From assembly GCA_031274255.1 (NCBI GenBank), contig JAISQK010000244.1:1-38175 (forward strand): a DNA stretch of 38,175 nucleotides, read 5' to 3'. Both the position numbers and the translations under genes were made by a program. Position 1 is the stretch's first letter, and the number at the start of each line of letters is the position of its first letter. The notes beneath the pieces were generated by a model. The model ran no database searches. It was given only the letters and a program-made list of their open reading frames with translations, and was not told where the DNA came from. This document shows positions 13,655 to 23,906 of the stretch, in pieces. The stretch comes from Planctomycetaceae bacterium. Lineage in GTDB: Bacteria; Planctomycetota; Planctomycetia; Pirellulales; Thermoguttaceae.

Positions 13655-16600
13655 ATGAGTATGATGAAAAAACTGTTAAATTTGAGTCCGTCACGTCGTT
13701 CCGGTCAATCGACCGTTTTAAAAACTCAACGCCGTCCGCGTTTGGAGCCGTTGGAAGACCGTCATCTTCTCGCGGTGGCATCCCCTTTGGATTCCTATTG
13801 GGGAACGCTTGAGACAACGAACGGAACAACGGAAATGGCTTTGACGGTCGCGACAGAAACCAATCAAAGTGCGATCGTCAGCATTCGAGTCGATTCCATT
13901 TTGCCCGGTACCAACAATTCCCATTTCGATCCGTCGAAACTCCGTATTTACGATTCCAATGGCGTTGAGGTTTCCGCCTCAAAAGTCTATTACAATAATG
14001 GGGACTTCCAGGGACAAACCTCAAGTCTCATTGTCCTTGAGTTGGCTCCGGGGGAATACAAGGTTTCTCTCGGCGGCGACCGGGGAAGTATCGGTCAGTT
14101 CGCTTGCCACGTTTTTCTGCCGGGCGATTCGGAAGGAACCGGAACGGTTTCCACGATGTCAACCTATGCCGCCAATGCCGCGTCCGACCTCACGAACGGT
14201 CGAATGAATGTTCCGACCGCCTCCTATTACAAGAAACTGGGGGTTGACGTTTCCACACTGAACATCGCCCCCTTTGATATTGACGGCAATGGAAACATCA
14301 GTGCGACGGAACTCAAGGCCGTCGGTCTCAATCAAAACGCGGGTCATGTCACCGCCGCACTGCGGGCCTGGAACCGGTCACCGGAAGTCCCGTCGAATCT
14401 GGTCTTTGGTCCAATCAGCGAAAACAGCGGGGAATTCACACAAACGATCACCGGAGTTTCCGACCCGGAAGGGGACGAATTTGAATTTCTCCCCGGTCTT
14501 ACCCTGACTTCACTCACTTTGAACGGTGAACCGCTTTCCATTCCTTCCAATATTCCGATGTCCCTGTCGCCGGAAGGAGTATTCACGATCATTCCCGACG
14601 GACTTTTCAGCATCATCCCGCAGAATCAGACCGCCGATCTTGTGATTGAATACAGGGTTCAGGACGCCGGTTCCGGAACTTACACGACAGGTCGGATTAC
14701 CCTTCGGATTACCGGAGTAAACGATCCGCCGCAAACTCAGGATGTGGAAGCGGCGGCGGTCGGTCAAACGCCGGTCAAGATTGACCTTGCCGGAAAGATC
14801 ACCGACCCGGACTATGGCGAAACGGAAACATTGACGGTGGCAAAAATCAACGGTCAGGACATCAGCAAGGGTTCGTCCGTCACGCTTGCCAGCGGTGCGG
14901 AAGTCCGGCTGGATGCCGACGGCAATCTCTATTATGATCCGAAAGATACGTTTGTGTCTCTTCCCGAGGGGGAATCGGCAGGGGATCAGTTCACCTATCA
15001 GGTGGCGGATGTCAACGGGGAATTGTCCGAAGCCTCTTTTGTCACGGTGGAAATTACCGGTGAAAATGACGCTCCGGTCGTGACAGACGATTACACCGCT
15101 TCCCTGGGGGAAAAAGAGGACAAGACCATCGGTTTTGACGATTTCCTTGCACTGGCGGAGGACATGGATGCAAATGATACGCTTTCCATAACCGCGGCGG
15201 ATGAGGTTTCGGATCAAGGTGCCGCAATCACGTACAACAGTTCGGAACAGACGGTTGTTTATCATCCCGGGTCGTTGTTTTATTTTCTCCAGGAGGGACA
15301 AACGGCGGAGGATTTCTTCTATGTCACCGTTTCCGACAATCACGGCGGCACGGTCCGGCTCAAGGTTGTTCTCACCATCAACGGGGAAAATGATCCTTTC
15401 ACTGCAACGGACCAGAACAAACGGGTCACCAGTTCTTCGGCGGGGGAAATTCTGTCCGCCGGTACGGTGGACATCACCTGTCCTGATGCGGGAGTTCCGT
15501 TTGAGTACGAAATTTTAGATGTCACCGGCGGACCGGCCGGGTGGGAAACGCCGGAATTTTTCATTGATTCCGCGGGACAGATTACGGTCAAGAAAGACAG
15601 CATTCCGGAAAAAACCAATCCCGGTGAGGAATTTCTCATTACGCTGAAAATCACGGACACTCGTGACGGTGTCGAGAAAGAGGAGACCGTCACTATTATC
15701 GTTTCGGTGATTGAGTATCCGGCGCCGGTGTTTGATCCGGCCTCACCGGTCACTCTTGGCGAAAAAGACACGGAGGAAAAGCGGCTCGCACTGTCGGCGC
15801 ACGACGACGGTTCCGAAGGAAACGATGTGGAATTTGTTCCGGAATCACTCACGTTGAAGTCTTCCGATCCGGCACTGGCGGGACTCGACTACACTTGTAC
15901 GCTTACAGAGGATGGTCAGGTCGTCTTCAAAATCAACACGCCGTTTGCCGGTGTCGCAGCCGGTCAAAACGCCACGCTCACGTTTGAGTTTGTTGTCCGT
16001 GAGTCGGGGCATGGCGTGGAAACCATCGGTACCTTTGACGTGGTCATCAGCGGTGTGAATGATGCTCCGCTCATTTCCGGCGGTCAAAGCGTCACGACCG
16101 GCAAAACAGGGACGGCGGGAATTAACCCCCAAGTCAATGCGGTTGACTCCGACGCCGGAGAAACCGGAACGCTCGCCATCGGCAAAATCAATGGTCAGGA
16201 TGTTTCGGTTGGAAGCACGATTCAACTGGCAAGCGGTGCCGTCGTGACGGTGAACTCCGACGGAACGCTTCAATACAATCCCAACGGCCGTTTCAACCAC
16301 CTCAATGACGGGGAACAGGCATCGGACTCGTTCACCTATCAGGTGAAAGATGTCAACGGAACATTCTCCAATGAAGTGACGGCCAATGTCACCATCAACG
16401 GGGCTAATCTCGCTCATACGGTGCCGAATCAGACGATGAATGTCACGTCAACCGGTGAAGACGGAGATGTGATCGCCGGCACGGTTCAGGTGAATGACCT
16501 GGACGGTCCGAAAGGAAATTATGTTTATTCGATTGTGTCCGTGGACGGTACCGACCCGGGATTCACGATTGATTCGACCGGAAAAATTCATGTCAACCGC

Positions 16601-19600
16601 GAAAACCTTCCGGATACCGGCACTTACACGATTGTCGTGAATGTTGCGGATGACGATTTCAATACTATCACCGGCACCATCACCGTGAATGTTGCGGAAA
16701 AACAACCTCCGGTGTGCGCAGATTACACGGTGCAGTCTCCGGTTCCGGAAAACGCGGCGGAAACAGAAATGGCGTCGGTTGATCTGAATCTCCTTGTGAC
16801 GAAAACCGATCCTGACGATACGCTGAAATTTCTTCCCGCGGTGTCGTTGGATTCCGCCCTGCTGAACGGTTCACTGGATGTCCGTGACCGGATTTCCGCG
16901 GCGGACCTTGCGAGAATGTGTACCGTGACCGAGGCTGGAACACTTTCGTTCAATCCTAACGCGGGCGGTGCGGACATGCTCTCCTTCCTTCCGGCGGGAA
17001 GCACGCTCACGATCGTTTTTGTTTACACGGTGGAGGATATCGGAACGGGACTCACCAGTTCCGGAAAAATCACTTTCACGGTCACAGGAGCCAATGACGC
17101 ACCGGTTGCCGCAAATGATGATTTCACCGGCACGGGGATTTTAGCGAACGCAGCGTCAAGTTCTCCGCTTGATGTCCTCGCGAACGACACCGACGCCGAC
17201 CTCAACTCGGCGCTCGGCATTGTGAGAGTTAACGGAACAGAGATCTCCGCGTCGTCTTCCGTTTCCATTGAAGTGGACAATGGGACCGTAACGGTTTCCC
17301 TGACCCCCGACGGCAAGCTGGTGTTCAATCCGAACGGTGCCTTCAATTATTTGAAAGAAGGTGAAACCGCGGATTTTAGGTTCTCCTACACCATTTCCGA
17401 CGGTAACGGCGGAACCAGCAGTACGACTGTTACGGTCAAAATCACCGGCGTCAACACGGCTCCGACGGTTCCGAATACCCCATTGAGTGCGACCACCGAA
17501 CGCGATGCGTCCCGATCCATAAACCTGCTTGAAGGTGCCCACGATGCAAACGGTGACAGCCTTGCCATTGCGCAAATCGACGGTCAGGATGTCGCTCCCG
17601 GTCAGACGATCAATTTTGCGGAAGGGGATTCCATCACGGTCAATGCCAACGGCACGGTCACTTACAATCCGGGAACACGTTTTGCCCATCTCGGAAAAAA
17701 TGACAGCGGGACACGTTCCTTCACTTTCCGGCTGACAGACGGTCGCTCGAACGGCCTTTCCAACTTACGGACGGTCAATGTCACCGTGACAGGAAAGAAT
17801 GACGCACCGGTCGTTGCGAACAGTATCCCGAATTTTGCTGAGCGCGGTGAGGAGACAAAGACCGTCACAATTGATTTGAATGACTATTTTAGCGACCCGA
17901 ACGGTGATCCGCTGACTTATCAGGTGGTCAAGGGAAGTGACCCGGCAAACATGATCACCTGTCAGCTTCAGGCGGACGGTCATACCCTCGTCATTACGTT
18001 CGCCGACTCCGATACTTACCATGCGGAGCAAAACCGAACCCCGGTTATCATTACCGTGACGGCAACAGATTCCGACTCCGCATCTGTTTCGCAGGAATTT
18101 ACCGCTGTGGCCATGCCGGAGCAAACCGTTAATGTGGAGGCGGTCATTGTGAAGGAATCGGAAGCGGCGGATTGGGAGCAAACGACCGTCTCGGAACAGG
18201 TTGACAGAATGGTGGTCGGCGAATATTACTACATTGAACTCTGGGCCACCGATCTGGCCAACACAATTGATTCCAACGGGTATATCAAGCCTCCGGCAGG
18301 GTTCACGGAATTTTCCAAAGGTTTAGCGGCCTTGCAGTTGGAACTCCATCTGGACGGTACGCTTGTAAGCATTGTCAGTACCAGTATTCAAGGGTATACC
18401 ATTTATGTTGAGTTTGCCCCTACGGTGGCCAGTGCGATGCTTGTTCCGAGTCCCACAGGTGCCGGAACATCTGATCTGTGTATTGACACGATTGGTGGAG
18501 CAATCAATATAACTACTTCACCTTGGTTGATTCCGCGGCTTGGTGTGGATGGAGAGTCTTGGCTCTTTGCCCGAATTAAAATTCAGGCGACCGGTACCGG
18601 TACCCTTCATGCGGAAACACCGATTGTTTCCGCCGGTCGTAACTCTGATGTGAGTAATGAAACATTGCCCATTCCCAGTTCCCAAGTGAAGACGCTGTGG
18701 ACGGATGTCGCGATTGTCAGTTCCGATAACCCTCTTCGCGGAACCGCTTCGCCGGAACTTCTCACCGAAGGAGGCGTTTATACCCGTATGGTCACCACTC
18801 CCACCGAAGTCAACGCTTACGGTGCGGTCAGTCAACTTCCTGAAAATGTCGATTGGATTCACGAATGGCAGGAACATTACGCGGAAATCTGGGTCAAAGC
18901 TTCCGATGTCAAGCTTTTCATGAGTGCTTTGACCAATCTGACCTACAACTCCGACTATTTTACTGCAGTGGAAGTGACCCCCGGAAATGTTTTCAAGAGT
19001 TCCTTCCAGCCGCTCATTGACGATGCCGGCGGTCTGGTTACGGGAATCGGCGGTACGGCTTCCGGTGTTGTTCCGACGGAGGGGTACATCCTTCTCGGAC
19101 GTGTGAAATTTGAATCACTCGGCAATGACAATGTGACGTTCCAGGAATCGTTCACTCCGCACGATCTCGGTATTTCTTTGGAGAATGCCATAGTAAACAC
19201 GGCGGATGGACAACACATTTCCATTACCGGAAACTCGCCGGCCACGGAACTTTGGAGTGTCCCGTATGATATTGATGACAACGGAACGATCAATCTCGCC
19301 GATTACCTCACTTTTGTCACCACTTTCATCAACGCAAATACGGAAAATCCGTTCGTCAATGCCTTGTTCGATTATGACCGGAACGGTGCGGTGGAAGTGA
19401 TCGACTATCAGTACATGGTCACGGCATTTATCAATAATTATTCCCGTGACAATTATGCCAACCTTCCGTTTTCGAGTAGCTATACCCAGCGGTACATCGG
19501 TAAGATTCTTGATGCCGAAAATTCGGCTACGATCAACACCATCATTGACGCCGCCAACAAAGCATGGCAAAACGCACTCGGTCTCGATAAGCCGCTCGAC

Positions 19601-20398
19601 ATTCAAATCCTTGTGAAAGACCTCGGTCCCGGTGTCCTTTTGGGCGAAGCTCAGATCGTTGCACTTGATGCCGCAGGCCGTCCCAGCCGGGGAATCATCA
19701 CACTGGACGACGATGCCGGCGGAATCGGCTGGTATTCGCAGCTTGCCGAACCGGTCACAACAGGCCGTTACGACCTCTATACCGTCATTCTGCATGAAAT
19801 GGGGCACGTTTACGGGTTCACCTCCAATTACGAGGCGTTCAGTGCGGTGGTCGGTCAGTTCGGTTCGTTGATTGACGCCGCCGGGGTTCATGCGACGGAT
19901 AACAGCGACCTGATGTCGGAAGTTTTGGAAACCGGTCTCCGCAAATATATTTCGTCACTCGACCAAGAAGCGATTTCCGCGGCATACCGGGCTGCGGAAG
20001 CGGATCCTGCGCTGCGTGATTTCATCGCGGCTCCGTCGCATTTGACACAAGCCGAAGAAACAGGTACTCCGACCGCCGAAATTCCGGCGGGAATCGCGGC
20101 GGTTGGAACGGTGACATTTGTTCAGGCGGCTCCGATCGTCCTGACGGCACGGAACGCGGAATTCATTGATCGGGACACGGCGTCAAAACTTCACGCGATG
20201 GGACTTTCCGTGACACTGCCGATTGAAGAATCGTCGCGGGCGGACAAACGGATTCAGAAAGATGTTGTTTTTGAAACCGATTGGTTTGCCGATGAAAAAT
20301 CCGAAGACAGTTTGTCGCAGAACCATTCCGCAAGACGCCGGGATTCGAAAGAGTTGATTTTTGCGGAACTCCACGCGGATTGGACGCTCATGGATTGA
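13655..20398 (+). CDS. Giant LEPR-XLL surface protein: cadherin-like repeats, dockerin, metzincin-like domain
   Basis: A 2247-residue extracellular protein. LEPR-XLL motif RLEPLEDRHLLAV at 29-41; an EF-hand-like DIDGNGNISATEL near 206-218; about ten cadherin/tandem-95-type modules from 250 to 1490, with boundaries such as ITGVNDPP, ITGENDAP, ISGVNDAP, VTGANDAP and VTGKNDAP; two cohesin-like beta domains at about 1490-1865; a dockerin-like pair (DIDDNGTINLADYL, then DYDRNGAVEVIDYQ) at about 1870-1925; and a C-terminal domain with HEMGHVYGF at 2047-2055 and a later DLMSE that resembles a Met-turn. The metzincin third ligand expected three residues after Gly2054 is Ser2057, so protease activity is uncertain. 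The ATG at 13655 follows GGAAGG at a loose spacing. Probable role: calcium-binding adhesin or surface scaffold. Its neighbour downstream shares the LEPR-XLL and dockerin ends. Confidence 0.9.
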   Translation: MSMMKKLLNLSPSRRSGQSTVLKTQRRPRLEPLEDRHLLAVASPLDSYWGTLETTNGTTEMALTVATETNQSAIVSIRVDSILPGTNNSHFDPSKLRIYDSNGVEVSASKVYYNNGDFQGQTSSLIVLELAPGEYKVSLGGDRGSIGQFACHVFLPGDSEGTGTVSTMSTYAANAASDLTNGRMNVPTASYYKKLGVDVSTLNIAPFDIDGNGNISATELKAVGLNQNAGHVTAALRAWNRSPEVPSNLVFGPISENSGEFTQTITGVSDPEGDEFEFLPGLTLTSLTLNGEPLSIPSNIPMSLSPEGVFTIIPDGLFSIIPQNQTADLVIEYRVQDAGSGTYTTGRITLRITGVNDPPQTQDVEAAAVGQTPVKIDLAGKITDPDYGETETLTVAKINGQDISKGSSVTLASGAEVRLDADGNLYYDPKDTFVSLPEGESAGDQFTYQVADVNGELSEASFVTVEITGENDAPVVTDDYTASLGEKEDKTIGFDDFLALAEDMDANDTLSITAADEVSDQGAAITYNSSEQTVVYHPGSLFYFLQEGQTAEDFFYVTVSDNHGGTVRLKVVLTINGENDPFTATDQNKRVTSSSAGEILSAGTVDITCPDAGVPFEYEILDVTGGPAGWETPEFFIDSAGQITVKKDSIPEKTNPGEEFLITLKITDTRDGVEKEETVTIIVSVIEYPAPVFDPASPVTLGEKDTEEKRLALSAHDDGSEGNDVEFVPESLTLKSSDPALAGLDYTCTLTEDGQVVFKINTPFAGVAAGQNATLTFEFVVRESGHGVETIGTFDVVISGVNDAPLISGGQSVTTGKTGTAGINPQVNAVDSDAGETGTLAIGKINGQDVSVGSTIQLASGAVVTVNSDGTLQYNPNGRFNHLNDGEQASDSFTYQVKDVNGTFSNEVTANVTINGANLAHTVPNQTMNVTSTGEDGDVIAGTVQVNDLDGPKGNYVYSIVSVDGTDPGFTIDSTGKIHVNRENLPDTGTYTIVVNVADDDFNTITGTITVNVAEKQPPVCADYTVQSPVPENAAETEMASVDLNLLVTKTDPDDTLKFLPAVSLDSALLNGSLDVRDRISAADLARMCTVTEAGTLSFNPNAGGADMLSFLPAGSTLTIVFVYTVEDIGTGLTSSGKITFTVTGANDAPVAANDDFTGTGILANAASSSPLDVLANDTDADLNSALGIVRVNGTEISASSSVSIEVDNGTVTVSLTPDGKLVFNPNGAFNYLKEGETADFRFSYTISDGNGGTSSTTVTVKITGVNTAPTVPNTPLSATTERDASRSINLLEGAHDANGDSLAIAQIDGQDVAPGQTINFAEGDSITVNANGTVTYNPGTRFAHLGKNDSGTRSFTFRLTDGRSNGLSNLRTVNVTVTGKNDAPVVANSIPNFAERGEETKTVTIDLNDYFSDPNGDPLTYQVVKGSDPANMITCQLQADGHTLVITFADSDTYHAEQNRTPVIITVTATDSDSASVSQEFTAVAMPEQTVNVEAVIVKESEAADWEQTTVSEQVDRMVVGEYYYIELWATDLANTIDSNGYIKPPAGFTEFSKGLAALQLELHLDGTLVSIVSTSIQGYTIYVEFAPTVASAMLVPSPTGAGTSDLCIDTIGGAINITTSPWLIPRLGVDGESWLFARIKIQATGTGTLHAETPIVSAGRNSDVSNETLPIPSSQVKTLWTDVAIVSSDNPLRGTASPELLTEGGVYTRMVTTPTEVNAYGAVSQLPENVDWIHEWQEHYAEIWVKASDVKLFMSALTNLTYNSDYFTAVEVTPGNVFKSSFQPLIDDAGGLVTGIGGTASGVVPTEGYILLGRVKFESLGNDNVTFQESFTPHDLGISLENAIVNTADGQHISITGNSPATELWSVPYDIDDNGTINLADYLTFVTTFINANTENPFVNALFDYDRNGAVEVIDYQYMVTAFINNYSRDNYANLPFSSSYTQRYIGKILDAENSATINTIIDAANKAWQNALGLDKPLDIQILVKDLGPGVLLGEAQIVALDAAGRPSRGIITLDDDAGGIGWYSQLAEPVTTGRYDLYTVILHEMGHVYGFTSNYEAFSAVVGQFGSLIDAAGVHATDNSDLMSEVLETGLRKYISSLDQEAISAAYRAAEADPALRDFIAAPSHLTQAEETGTPTAEIPAGIAAVGTVTFVQAAPIVLTARNAEFIDRDTASKLHAMGLSVTLPIEESSRADKRIQKDVVFETDWFADEKSEDSLSQNHSARRRDSKELIFAELHADWTLMD

Positions 20399-20430
20399 CA
20401 ATCCGAAAAACCTTTGTAGATTGTGTTTTA

Positions 20431-20543: not shown

Positions 20544-23500
20544 ATGTTTCATCAATTCCTCTCCCGACTCCTGTTTGGTACGGAAAACACTGTTTCCGGG
20601 AAATACCCTGTTTCTCAAAAACACAAAACGTTGCGTCTTGAGTCCCTGGAGGACCGGCATCTTTTGAGTGTTTCCTTTGATCCCGGGGCGGAGTACACGT
20701 ATGCCGGAACGTCCGGTACGGCCATCGCTCCGGTACTCGGAGTGAACCGCGGAGTTTATATCGCCGATTTCACGAATGATCAGAATGCGGACATTCTTGC
20801 GGTCAATGTCGGTAAAACCACAGTTTATACCAATCAAAACGGCAATTTTTCCGGACTGGGAACGGATACGTATCTTGATGAGTTGTCGCAATCACATGCC
20901 ACGGCTGTTGGAAAACTCAATACGGACGGCTATGCGGATCTGGTCAACATGATGTGTAACCAGAGATGGAACGGCACGAATTGGGAACCGACGGTTACCG
21001 TCACCACATGGAACGGCAGCGGACTTGCCAACTCTTCGGCCTCTTCCGCTGTGTGGTCGACGCAGGAATACAACGTGGCACAGCTTTTCGGTTTGGGAGA
21101 CGCCACATTCACATTACAGGTTTCCGACCTCCAAATCCTTGATGCCAACGGCGACGGGAATAACGATCTGGTCGGTGTCATTCAGTATCAAACCGGGACT
21201 TCATCAAGCAGTTCGCAGCGTGTCGTCCTCGTTCTTACCGGACTGGGAAACGGTTCTTTCTCCTCAACGCCGTATCTTGTCAGCGGTTTGTCCGCCTCGG
21301 CATCCGGTGAAGTTCAGAAATGTGCTGATCTTGCCGGGACATCCGCCATGGAAGTGGTCACACTTTCTTCCGACGGCCGGTCCATTGACATTTACGGAGT
21401 CACCGCAAACGGAACCGGTGCCTCCAAACTTGCCACCTACACGTATGGTTCACCAATCTCCCGCATTTTTACCGGTGATGTGAACGGTGACGGAAAATCG
21501 GAACTTCTGATTTATTCAACATCCGGCGGCAAATCGTATCTTGAAGCGGTACGGGTTACTCAAAGCGGTTCCAGCTGCACGTTCACCCCGCTCGGCGACA
21601 AAACGGAGGTGACCACAAGTGTGACTTATCTGGCAACCGGTGATTTGAATAAAGACGGCAAGCCGGACATCCTCATTTCCGACGGTGTGACTTATCAGGT
21701 GCTGATTCAGGGAAATGACAGTAGCTTCACCGCGCAAAACAAAATCGTGACGCTTGCGGATTACGTCACTTCGGTCACGGGCGACTTTGACGGCGACGGA
21801 ATCAACGATGTTCTTGCGGTCGGAAAGAATATTGCCACACTGATTCCCGGCGGTGCGGCGAAAACACCGTCCGTTGTGATCAACTTCAGCGAACAGGGAA
21901 TCGCACCGCGGGATTTTGCGTTCGGCGATTTCAATCATGACGGAAGCATTGACATCGCGGTACTCGGCGGCAATCTTGGAGAGGAAATTGTCCTCTTTAA
22001 CGGCACACCGTCCGGAACAAGCAAATTCGTCAAAAGCAGTACGGTACTTTCTGTGACATTCGGGCAGAAACTTCTCGCCGGAAATTTCGACAATACCCAT
22101 GAGGGAGACGACCTTGCCGTGATTTACGGAACGGAAAATACCAATTCCTCGATTTCCACTTTCGTGTCCACCGCTTCCGGTTTGTCGGCAAGTCCGGTTT
22201 CTTCGACGCTGAATTTCGGGTATCTTGATGATTTCACTGCGGGAAAATTCAGCAGTACCACTGTGGATGACATTGCCGCTATCAGAAAGAGCAGTTCGGA
22301 AGTTTGTGTGTTGAAAAATAACGGCAGCGGAAGATTCACTCTCGCGACACATGTGGTTGTCGGTTCCACTGCCGCACCTTTGCCGCTTGATCTTGCCATT
22401 GGCGATGTTGACAAAGATGGAAGAAACGACATTGTTGTCCTGCTTGCCGGTGAAAAAAGTTTACAGGTTCTCAAACAGAATCAACAGGGAAGACTCGAAC
22501 TGCAAACACCGAAACTCATCTCCAACAATCTCCGCAGCGATCATTGCAAGACCCTTCAGCTCGCGGACTTTGACGGAGACGGTTCGCTTGACGCGTTCGT
22601 GGGAGTCATTGATGGAACCTCCCGCGGCAGTTTTTTGGTGATACAAAATGATTCCGCCGGAAATTTCAATTCCATTTCGTCTATGGAAGTGCCGGCGGCG
22701 TTCGGCAGCACGATGTATGGACGGCTCGGACTTTCCATCGGTTACATGGACGACAATGATTCGCCGGATGTGATTCTTGTCGGAGACAACACGGTCATGA
22801 CCTTCAAAAACAAAGCTCTCTTCAAAAGTGAGTCCGGTGAAATTCAGCTTGTTTTCCGCGATTACAGTTCCGCAAAATCCACATCCCAGGTTGGCAATCT
22901 TGCAACACTCGGCAATCAGAGAACTTATCTGGATGAGTGGTCTTGCTTCCAGGTGGAGGTTTGGGCCAACACGAAATCCGTATCAGAGGGAATTTCGGAA
23001 TTTTCCTGTGTGATCCGGTTTGATGCCGCCGTGTTTGAAGTCGATAATGTCAGCGGATCGTGGGTTTTTGAAGGAGGCAGCGGATTCACTAATGTGACTT
23101 GCGTTGTTGCCAACGGCACGGTGACGCTTACTGGAAGACTGGCAAATGGTGCCGCGGTTCAGGGAGCCGGCACAAATACGCTTCTCGGACGGATTGCGTT
23201 CATCCCTGCGGAAAACGGTACCGGGGTTCCCATCAACATTGATGGACAGTATCTTACTCCGCATGAAAACGGTTTTTCGGTGACCGCAGGCTCATCAACA
23301 TGGCTGAAAACCAGTGCCGGTTCGACCGCTTCGCCGAAAACGGTTGCGAATGACACACCGCTTTTCGCTGTTCCTTACGATCTTAATGATGATAATGTCG
23401 TGAATTTAGTGGATTATCTCTATTTCATCACGGTTTTCATTAACCCGGTGGATCAGAATTTGTTTTTTGTTACAGATTTTGATCACAACAACCGTGTTGA

Positions 23501-23906
23501 AGTGTTTGACTGGACCTATATGGTCACGAACTTCATTCAACAAAGTCGCCGCCAAGTTTGCCGGGAAACGAAGTCATCAGTTCCTTATCCCGCGAATTTT
23601 CCGGCGGATTGGCTGCCGCCTCAAGCACAAGCCGCCGCGTTGCCAACCAGTCTTGCAAATGCGGACAGTGGAGCCTGGAACAGTAAAGCAAATACGGACA
23701 GTAGTGCCGCGGACAGTGGTACTTGGGACAATAATAAAGTGGACAATGCCTCGGAGGAAACATTTACCGATGCCCGTGACGCTCAGGAACAGGCTTTGAT
23801 GGCCTATTTAGACGCTCCCTCACAGCGCAGTGAGAAATCGTTCTTTGAGGAACTGCTCGAAGAACAAAACGATGTGGACTCTCTGCTGAAAGAGGGAGCA
23901 TTGTAA
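20544..23906 (+). CDS. Large LEPR-XLL surface protein: FG-GAP/VCBS repeats, cohesin-like domain, dockerin
   Basis: A 1120-residue protein with the motif RLESLEDRHLLSV at about 31-43. Residues 60-745 hold at least nine calcium-binding FG-GAP/VCBS-type blades, each with a loop of the form D-x-[DN]-x-D-G, for example DANGDGNNDLVG, GDVNGDGKSELL, GDLNKDGKPDIL, GDFDGDGINDVL and ADFDGDGSLDAF, as in integrin-like beta-propellers. Residues 775-935 form a cohesin-like domain, and about 945-1000 a dockerin-like pair (DLNDDNVVNLVDYL, DFDHNNRVEVFDWT). The tail is low-complexity with a 16-residue repeat and an acidic end. ATG 20544 follows AAAGGG at five bases. It probably forms a unit with the giant gene upstream. 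Function (adhesin, polysaccharide or protein binding) is inferred from the domains. Confidence 0.9.
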   Translation: MFHQFLSRLLFGTENTVSGKYPVSQKHKTLRLESLEDRHLLSVSFDPGAEYTYAGTSGTAIAPVLGVNRGVYIADFTNDQNADILAVNVGKTTVYTNQNGNFSGLGTDTYLDELSQSHATAVGKLNTDGYADLVNMMCNQRWNGTNWEPTVTVTTWNGSGLANSSASSAVWSTQEYNVAQLFGLGDATFTLQVSDLQILDANGDGNNDLVGVIQYQTGTSSSSSQRVVLVLTGLGNGSFSSTPYLVSGLSASASGEVQKCADLAGTSAMEVVTLSSDGRSIDIYGVTANGTGASKLATYTYGSPISRIFTGDVNGDGKSELLIYSTSGGKSYLEAVRVTQSGSSCTFTPLGDKTEVTTSVTYLATGDLNKDGKPDILISDGVTYQVLIQGNDSSFTAQNKIVTLADYVTSVTGDFDGDGINDVLAVGKNIATLIPGGAAKTPSVVINFSEQGIAPRDFAFGDFNHDGSIDIAVLGGNLGEEIVLFNGTPSGTSKFVKSSTVLSVTFGQKLLAGNFDNTHEGDDLAVIYGTENTNSSISTFVSTASGLSASPVSSTLNFGYLDDFTAGKFSSTTVDDIAAIRKSSSEVCVLKNNGSGRFTLATHVVVGSTAAPLPLDLAIGDVDKDGRNDIVVLLAGEKSLQVLKQNQQGRLELQTPKLISNNLRSDHCKTLQLADFDGDGSLDAFVGVIDGTSRGSFLVIQNDSAGNFNSISSMEVPAAFGSTMYGRLGLSIGYMDDNDSPDVILVGDNTVMTFKNKALFKSESGEIQLVFRDYSSAKSTSQVGNLATLGNQRTYLDEWSCFQVEVWANTKSVSEGISEFSCVIRFDAAVFEVDNVSGSWVFEGGSGFTNVTCVVANGTVTLTGRLANGAAVQGAGTNTLLGRIAFIPAENGTGVPINIDGQYLTPHENGFSVTAGSSTWLKTSAGSTASPKTVANDTPLFAVPYDLNDDNVVNLVDYLYFITVFINPVDQNLFFVTDFDHNNRVEVFDWTYMVTNFIQQSRRQVCRETKSSVPYPANFPADWLPPQAQAAALPTSLANADSGAWNSKANTDSSAADSGTWDNNKVDNASEETFTDARDAQEQALMAYLDAPSQRSEKSFFEELLEEQNDVDSLLKEGAL
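23661..23756 (+). repeat. 48-bp imperfect tandem repeat in the tail of the second LEPR-XLL protein
   Basis: GCGGACAGTGG recurs at 23661 and 23709. The two units encode ADSGAWNSKANTDSSA and ADSGTWDNNKVDNAS. The segment is rich in Ser, Asn, Asp and Ala and lies after the dockerin, like a flexible linker. Confidence 0.75.

Follow-up and report, generated by a model that had tools for sequence, protein, structure and literature searches.

Does a metzincin-like domain that carries serine where the third zinc ligand is expected still hold a working metal site? The question is raised by a gene on contig JAISQK010000244.1 of a Planctomycetaceae bacterium (assembly GCA_031274255.1; 3.76 Mb in 377 contigs, estimated 87% complete), of which we analysed positions 1 to 38,175; this whole stretch of 38,175 nucleotides is the window to which all coordinates refer. 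The gene, read from the open reading frame list (13655..20398, on the + strand like every other feature given here), encodes a putative surface protein of LEPR-XLL type, 2247 residues long, with a metzincin domain at its C-terminus. A preliminary description of the sequence had noted HEMGHVYG and a Met-turn-like DLM in a domain behind a dockerin, and had proposed from Ser2057 that the third ligand is missing, with either Asn2058 or Glu2060 binding zinc in its stead or the domain serving as a pseudoprotease. We find instead a conserved histidine further downstream, and conclude that the domain is very probably an intact and active metzincin-type zinc endopeptidase of matrixin-like fold, the third histidine of which has been displaced by an insertion.

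The motifs themselves lie where the preliminary description had read them. HEMGHVYG (19793..19816) contributes His2047, Glu2048, His2051 and Gly2054, the HExxHxxG sequence of metzincin clan MA(M), and Asp-Leu-Met at residues 2085-2087 (19907..19915) fits a Met-turn, of which Met2087 would be the methionine. The standard definition of metzincins, as worded in a passage of PMC3427221, puts the third ligand three residues past the glycine (Gly+3). Neither His nor Asp is found there in the window protein, the position being occupied by Ser2057 (19823-19825), as had been noted. The Gly+3 rule was therefore applied correctly, but by analogy an accepted exception to it, an insertion like that of leishmanolysin, appears to fit better. 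The tested domain (residues 1936-2132; 19460..20050), supported by homologue alignment, structure prediction and structural comparison, has only four histidines (2047, 2051, 2079 and 2129). Apart from the HExxH pair these are His2079 (codon CAT, 19889..19891), which lies at Gly+25 and 8 residues ahead of Met2087, and His2129, which falls in the low-confidence end of the predicted model.

In a protein search of 99 genomes, including that of the window, 41 had matches at E <= 0.01, and 17 strong places (E of 5e-25 or lower) were located in 16 of these. We aligned 16 of the 17 domains, the window protein's among them; the one left out (G036:C330) was fetched later and agrees with the rest. H2047, E2048, H2051, G2054, H2079, D2085 and M2087 are invariant (16/16). 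The homologue alignment that the preliminary description had suggested thus speaks against a lost ligand, since the displaced histidine is kept throughout and stands where an insertion-bearing metzincin would be expected to have its third His. The residues offered as substitutes are near the canonical position, which is the point in their favour, but their columns are not conserved: leaving gaps out of account, seven different residues occur in that of Ser2057, seven in that of Asn2058 and five in that of Glu2060, the Asn2058 column reading N2 S5 A3 Q2 G1 T1 H1 gap1 and the Glu2060 column E4 D4 S4 A2 T1 gap1. We regard it as exceedingly improbable that either of them is the third ligand.

Between Gly2054 and the proposed third ligand lie 24 residues (19817..19888) as against 2 in the canonical layout, an insertion of 22 residues within which a helix is predicted (19832-19870). 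A precedent of solved structure is leishmanolysin (M8, GP63), in which 62 residues are described as inserted between the glycine and the third histidine (PMC4580569, PMC11957388, PMC9321319), and which is counted as a metzincin nonetheless. The window domain differs from leishmanolysin in holding no cysteines and in leaving Pfam M8 unmatched at E <= 0.1; only 1/16 aligned domains matches that model (0.028). The insertion is absent from one homologue, L020, whose genome belongs to the same family but to a different genus; it reads HELGHLYGYEIHSANANDVM, with His at Gly+4 and a His-to-Met distance of 8. A maximum-likelihood tree of 60 sequences, built with the insertion columns kept and unsure in its deep order owing to long branches, places L020 as sister to the insertion-bearing L011 (support 99/88), inside an insertion-bearing group. 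Because it is nested among insertion bearers, its lineage has probably lost the insertion, judging from sequence; an assembly error may account for its layout instead. L020 offers a natural comparison for the role of the inserted helix.

A wider profile search covered 392 genomes across the phylum, with up to 8 candidates scored per genome, and gave matches at E <= 1e-12 in 18. When all fetched loci were searched again without a motif filter, we recovered 76 frames at this threshold, corresponding to 49 distinct sequences including the window's. None of the 76 lacks HE..H..[GA], and a histidine precedes the Met-turn in 49/49 (46 counted by script and three, L016, L063 and L036, by reading; the position of the methionine was assigned by reading in L110, L052 and L054). 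Gly-to-His spacing ranges from 4 to 50, with two main groups: 21-25 with a His-to-Met distance of 8, and 36-37 with a distance of 11. In relatives of canonical layout the His-to-Met distance is 8 (L103) or 7 (L031). These counts bear on the idea of a pseudoprotease, in which the third ligand would be truly lost and the domain used for binding only. Ser at Gly+3 is what such a domain might show, but if the zinc site were decaying, drift should show in at least some sequences, and neither HExxH nor the later His is lost in any of the 49 sequences. One may still envisage a pseudo-enzyme, tethered and with its metal site retained; overall, we consider a pseudoprotease very unlikely. Directly behind the L103 homologue (G048) lies a second metzincin with canonical HExxHxxGxxH, HEWGHLAGEEHSEENDDWM, so that two active-site layouts occur side by side.

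Structure prediction, which had also been suggested, bears out the assignment to the metzincins. An AlphaFold2 (AF2) model of the domain, built from the 16-sequence alignment, has a mean predicted local distance difference test score (pLDDT) of 88.9 and a predicted template modelling score (pTM) of 0.87, with helices at model residues 106-118 (active-site helix), 125-137 (the extra helix within the insertion, as assigned by DSSP) and 166-181. Foldseek returned 43 matches to this model at E <= 0.001, all of them matrix metalloproteinases (MMPs) or karilysin, with query TM-scores of about 0.5. Re-examination of Foldseek's own match list with VIA-align gave, for the 50 MMP matches listed, Z 11.2-12.1 and a root-mean-square deviation of 2.4-3.5 over 125-131 aligned residues. 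The alignments cover model residues 11 to 176-180, and hence the flanks on either side of the insertion; since they reach across it, its two flanks fit one predicted fold. A single-sequence search of solved structures with the domain gave nothing meaningful.

Family profiles point the same way. Pfam Matrixin (Peptidase_M10, PF00413) matches 16/16 aligned domains at E <= 0.1 (best 2.2e-7); for the window-protein domain the match has E 0.0019 and 18.6 bits, below the cut-off of 24. Given the Matrixin matches of all 16 domains and the agreement of the predicted fold with the catalytic domains of MMPs, the likeness to metzincins goes beyond chance. The best-matching NCBIfam model is NF038122 (metallo_LGF), again 16/16 at E <= 0.1 (best 2e-12), with 33.5 bits and 4.4e-8 for the window-protein domain against a cut-off of 80. 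We compared the domain with seven places that score above this cut-off in 60 genomes. Five have, like the window protein, a histidine after a long insertion but, unlike it, within Ser-His-Trp/Phe 80-94 residues past the glycine; in three of them, where the script found Met-Asp/Asn-Pro, this histidine is 10-16 residues ahead of the methionine. In the other two (L072 and L087) our pattern found no HExxH in the long frame. The matrixins (Peptidase_M10, MMPs and karilysin) share the predicted fold and the Met-turn with the window domain and are its best structural matches; they differ from it in lacking the 22-residue insertion ahead of the third histidine. The cysteine switch of MMPs is marked by the string PRC; unlike MMPs, the window protein contains no such string.

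Several observations weigh against an intact, displaced zinc site. The window-protein domain matches no curated metalloprotease family of Pfam or NCBIfam above its cut-off. The AF2 model contains no zinc, so that a ligand role for His2079 is deduced from position and conservation. Of the 16 aligned domains, ten have a His-to-Met distance of 8 and one of 9, but five have 11. In L020 the histidine stands at Gly+4 rather than at the canonical Gly+3. The methionine of the Met-turn, described as absolutely conserved in a passage of PMC1266349, is replaced by Leu in 2/49 sequences (L061 and L036), which would be exceptions to that statement. The 49 sequences are also not independent, since most come from three families, with about three apiece from nine genomes of a single genus. 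Finally, Asp2085 is as invariant as His2079 among the 16 domains, and the histidine does not stand out by conservation alone. This last point admits an Asp-zincin-like site in which Asp2085, two residues ahead of the methionine, is the third ligand and His2079 is conserved for some other reason; some distant planctomycete relatives (L023, L024, L027, L029 and L035) do have an Asp-zincin-like layout, with Asp at Gly+3. However, Asp2085 sits within the Met-turn, and Asp is found there also in relatives with a canonical third His (HSEENDDWM in L103, HDDPYDVM in L031). A ligand role for Asp2085 is thus highly improbable, if slightly less so than one for Asn2058 or Glu2060.

With His2079 as third ligand, zinc would be bound by His2047, His2051 and His2079, with Glu2048 as the general base and Met2087 forming the Met-turn. 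The one-helix insertion would part the conserved glycine from the third histidine much as the longer insertion of leishmanolysin does, and the inserted helix may shape the substrate cleft. One probable false pseudoprotease is thereby removed. More broadly, a fixed HExxHxxGxxH pattern misses a group of Planctomycetes metzincins in which the third histidine lies 1 to 47 residues beyond its canonical place, as counted in the sequences read. Our literature searches, which covered subscription journals to a small extent, found nothing in print on this metzincin domain.

The rest of the protein sets the domain in an architecture that the preliminary description had called unusual. At the N-terminus lies a motif, read directly in the sequence, which we take to be that named LEPR-XLL (RRPRLEPLEDRHLLAV region, 13724..13777; Pfam Planc_extracel at residues 24-41, 17.6 bits against a cut-off of 25.5). 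It is followed by an array of cadherin-like, VCBS-like and bacterial Ig repeats, with approximate limits 14426..18200 (Pfam Big_9 1.6e-53, Cadherin_4 2.9e-47 and Cadherin_5 4.9e-26; NCBIfam tand_rpt_95 and VCBS_repeat), by a cohesin-like module (18776..19255), and by a dockerin-like module with two calcium-loop repeats (19265..19414), behind which stands the metzincin domain. The last 115 residues form a C-terminal tail (20051..20395), which matches no Pfam model at E values up to 5. Three genomes of the same genus have counterpart open frames of 2069-2106 residues with long matches. In three relatives from that genus the final 310 residues, which take in the metzincin domain, can be aligned with 42-47% identity across 311-329 columns. 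LEPR-XLL-like N-termini were found in ten homologues whose start fell inside the fetched DNA (L002, L003, L004, L092, L093, L094, L097, L099, L102 and L103), the remaining starts being cut off. The protease would thus be the working part of a LEPR-XLL surface protein, placed at its C-terminus behind cohesin-like and dockerin modules.

The two modules ahead of the protease are less well supported by Pfam than by comparison with solved structures. For the window protein, Pfam Cohesin scores 17.1 bits against a cut-off of 24.1, and Dockerin_1 scores 19.0 bits against 22.9 (residues 1871-1920). The domain does stand behind a dockerin-like module, as described, with a cohesin-like module before that. 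The 300 residues upstream of the metzincin domain align over 16 sequences (only 116 residues in L012), and Pfam at E <= 0.1 finds Cohesin in 3/16 of these stretches, Dockerin_1 in 10/16 and EF-hand_7 in 15/16. An AF2 model of the cohesin-like module (pLDDT 75.4; residues 1-63 unreliable) has cohesin 2jh2 at rank 2 in Foldseek (E 2.4e-6), and cohesins make up most of the model's 46 matches at E <= 0.001, with TMt up to 0.67, which points to a cohesin fold in the predicted model. In the duplicated calcium loops of the dockerin-like module, the Asp/Gly loop positions are invariant in 16 sequences. A profile of the cassette, A2, matches solved dockerins (2y3n_B, 2.5e-6) intermixed with calmodulin-type and other EF-hand proteins.

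The combination of modules is real, but it is not unique to this protein: the order cohesin-like module, dockerin, metzincin recurs in the aligned relatives, and a 'planctosome' has already been proposed for freshwater Planctomycetes (PMC6461901), in which cohesin and dockerin modules and an M12B Reprolysin_4-like peptidase of metzincin type belong to a surface complex. That model has the peptidases docking onto an adaptor that is a separate protein, whereas the window protein has cohesin-like module, dockerin-like module and protease in one chain.

Immediately downstream lies a second gene for a LEPR-XLL-type protein (20544..23906), identified by Pfam and profile matches. Its product has FG-GAP repeats and, encoded at 22863-23549, another cohesin-dockerin cassette, and is 33% identical to the metzincin protein over 218 columns. 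In three genomes of the same genus the metzincin gene is likewise followed by a frame matching this one, truncated at a contig end in one of them. In the window's own genome, profile A2 gives two matches only at E <= 0.001, in these two genes (13655-20398 and 20544-23906), which suggests a two-protein docking pair. Pfam Dockerin_1 has no match there at E <= 0.01; since it is silent where A2 finds two cassettes, other and more divergent dockerins may be missed.

We extended the cassette search to 13 of the 15 other strong-match genomes, leaving out G075 and G091. In all 13 the cassette profile matches at least one protein other than the metzincin protein, in some by a partial match, and in seven this protein is on the same contig (G001, G002, G020, G028, G040, G048 and G053). 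Against a general gene pair, the second cassette is on another contig in G003, G055, G032, G051, G036 and G016 (owing, or possibly owing, to a contig end in G003 and G016), and the next same-strand frame is not LEPR-XLL-like for L092, L093, L096, L099, L100 and L101. It is conceivable, if rather doubtful, that the two adjacent proteins cross-dock through their own cohesin-like and dockerin modules as a private system of surface assembly, with the metzincin and its cleft-shaping inserted helix as the enzyme. With this gene pair, the role of cohesin and dockerin outside cellulosomes could be tested directly, two proteins being enough. Between the two genes we also noted a promoter-like sequence, TTGACA-16-TAGATT (20395-20422; 10/12), the one found, as against a mean of 0.2 (standard deviation 0.4) in shuffled versions of the region.

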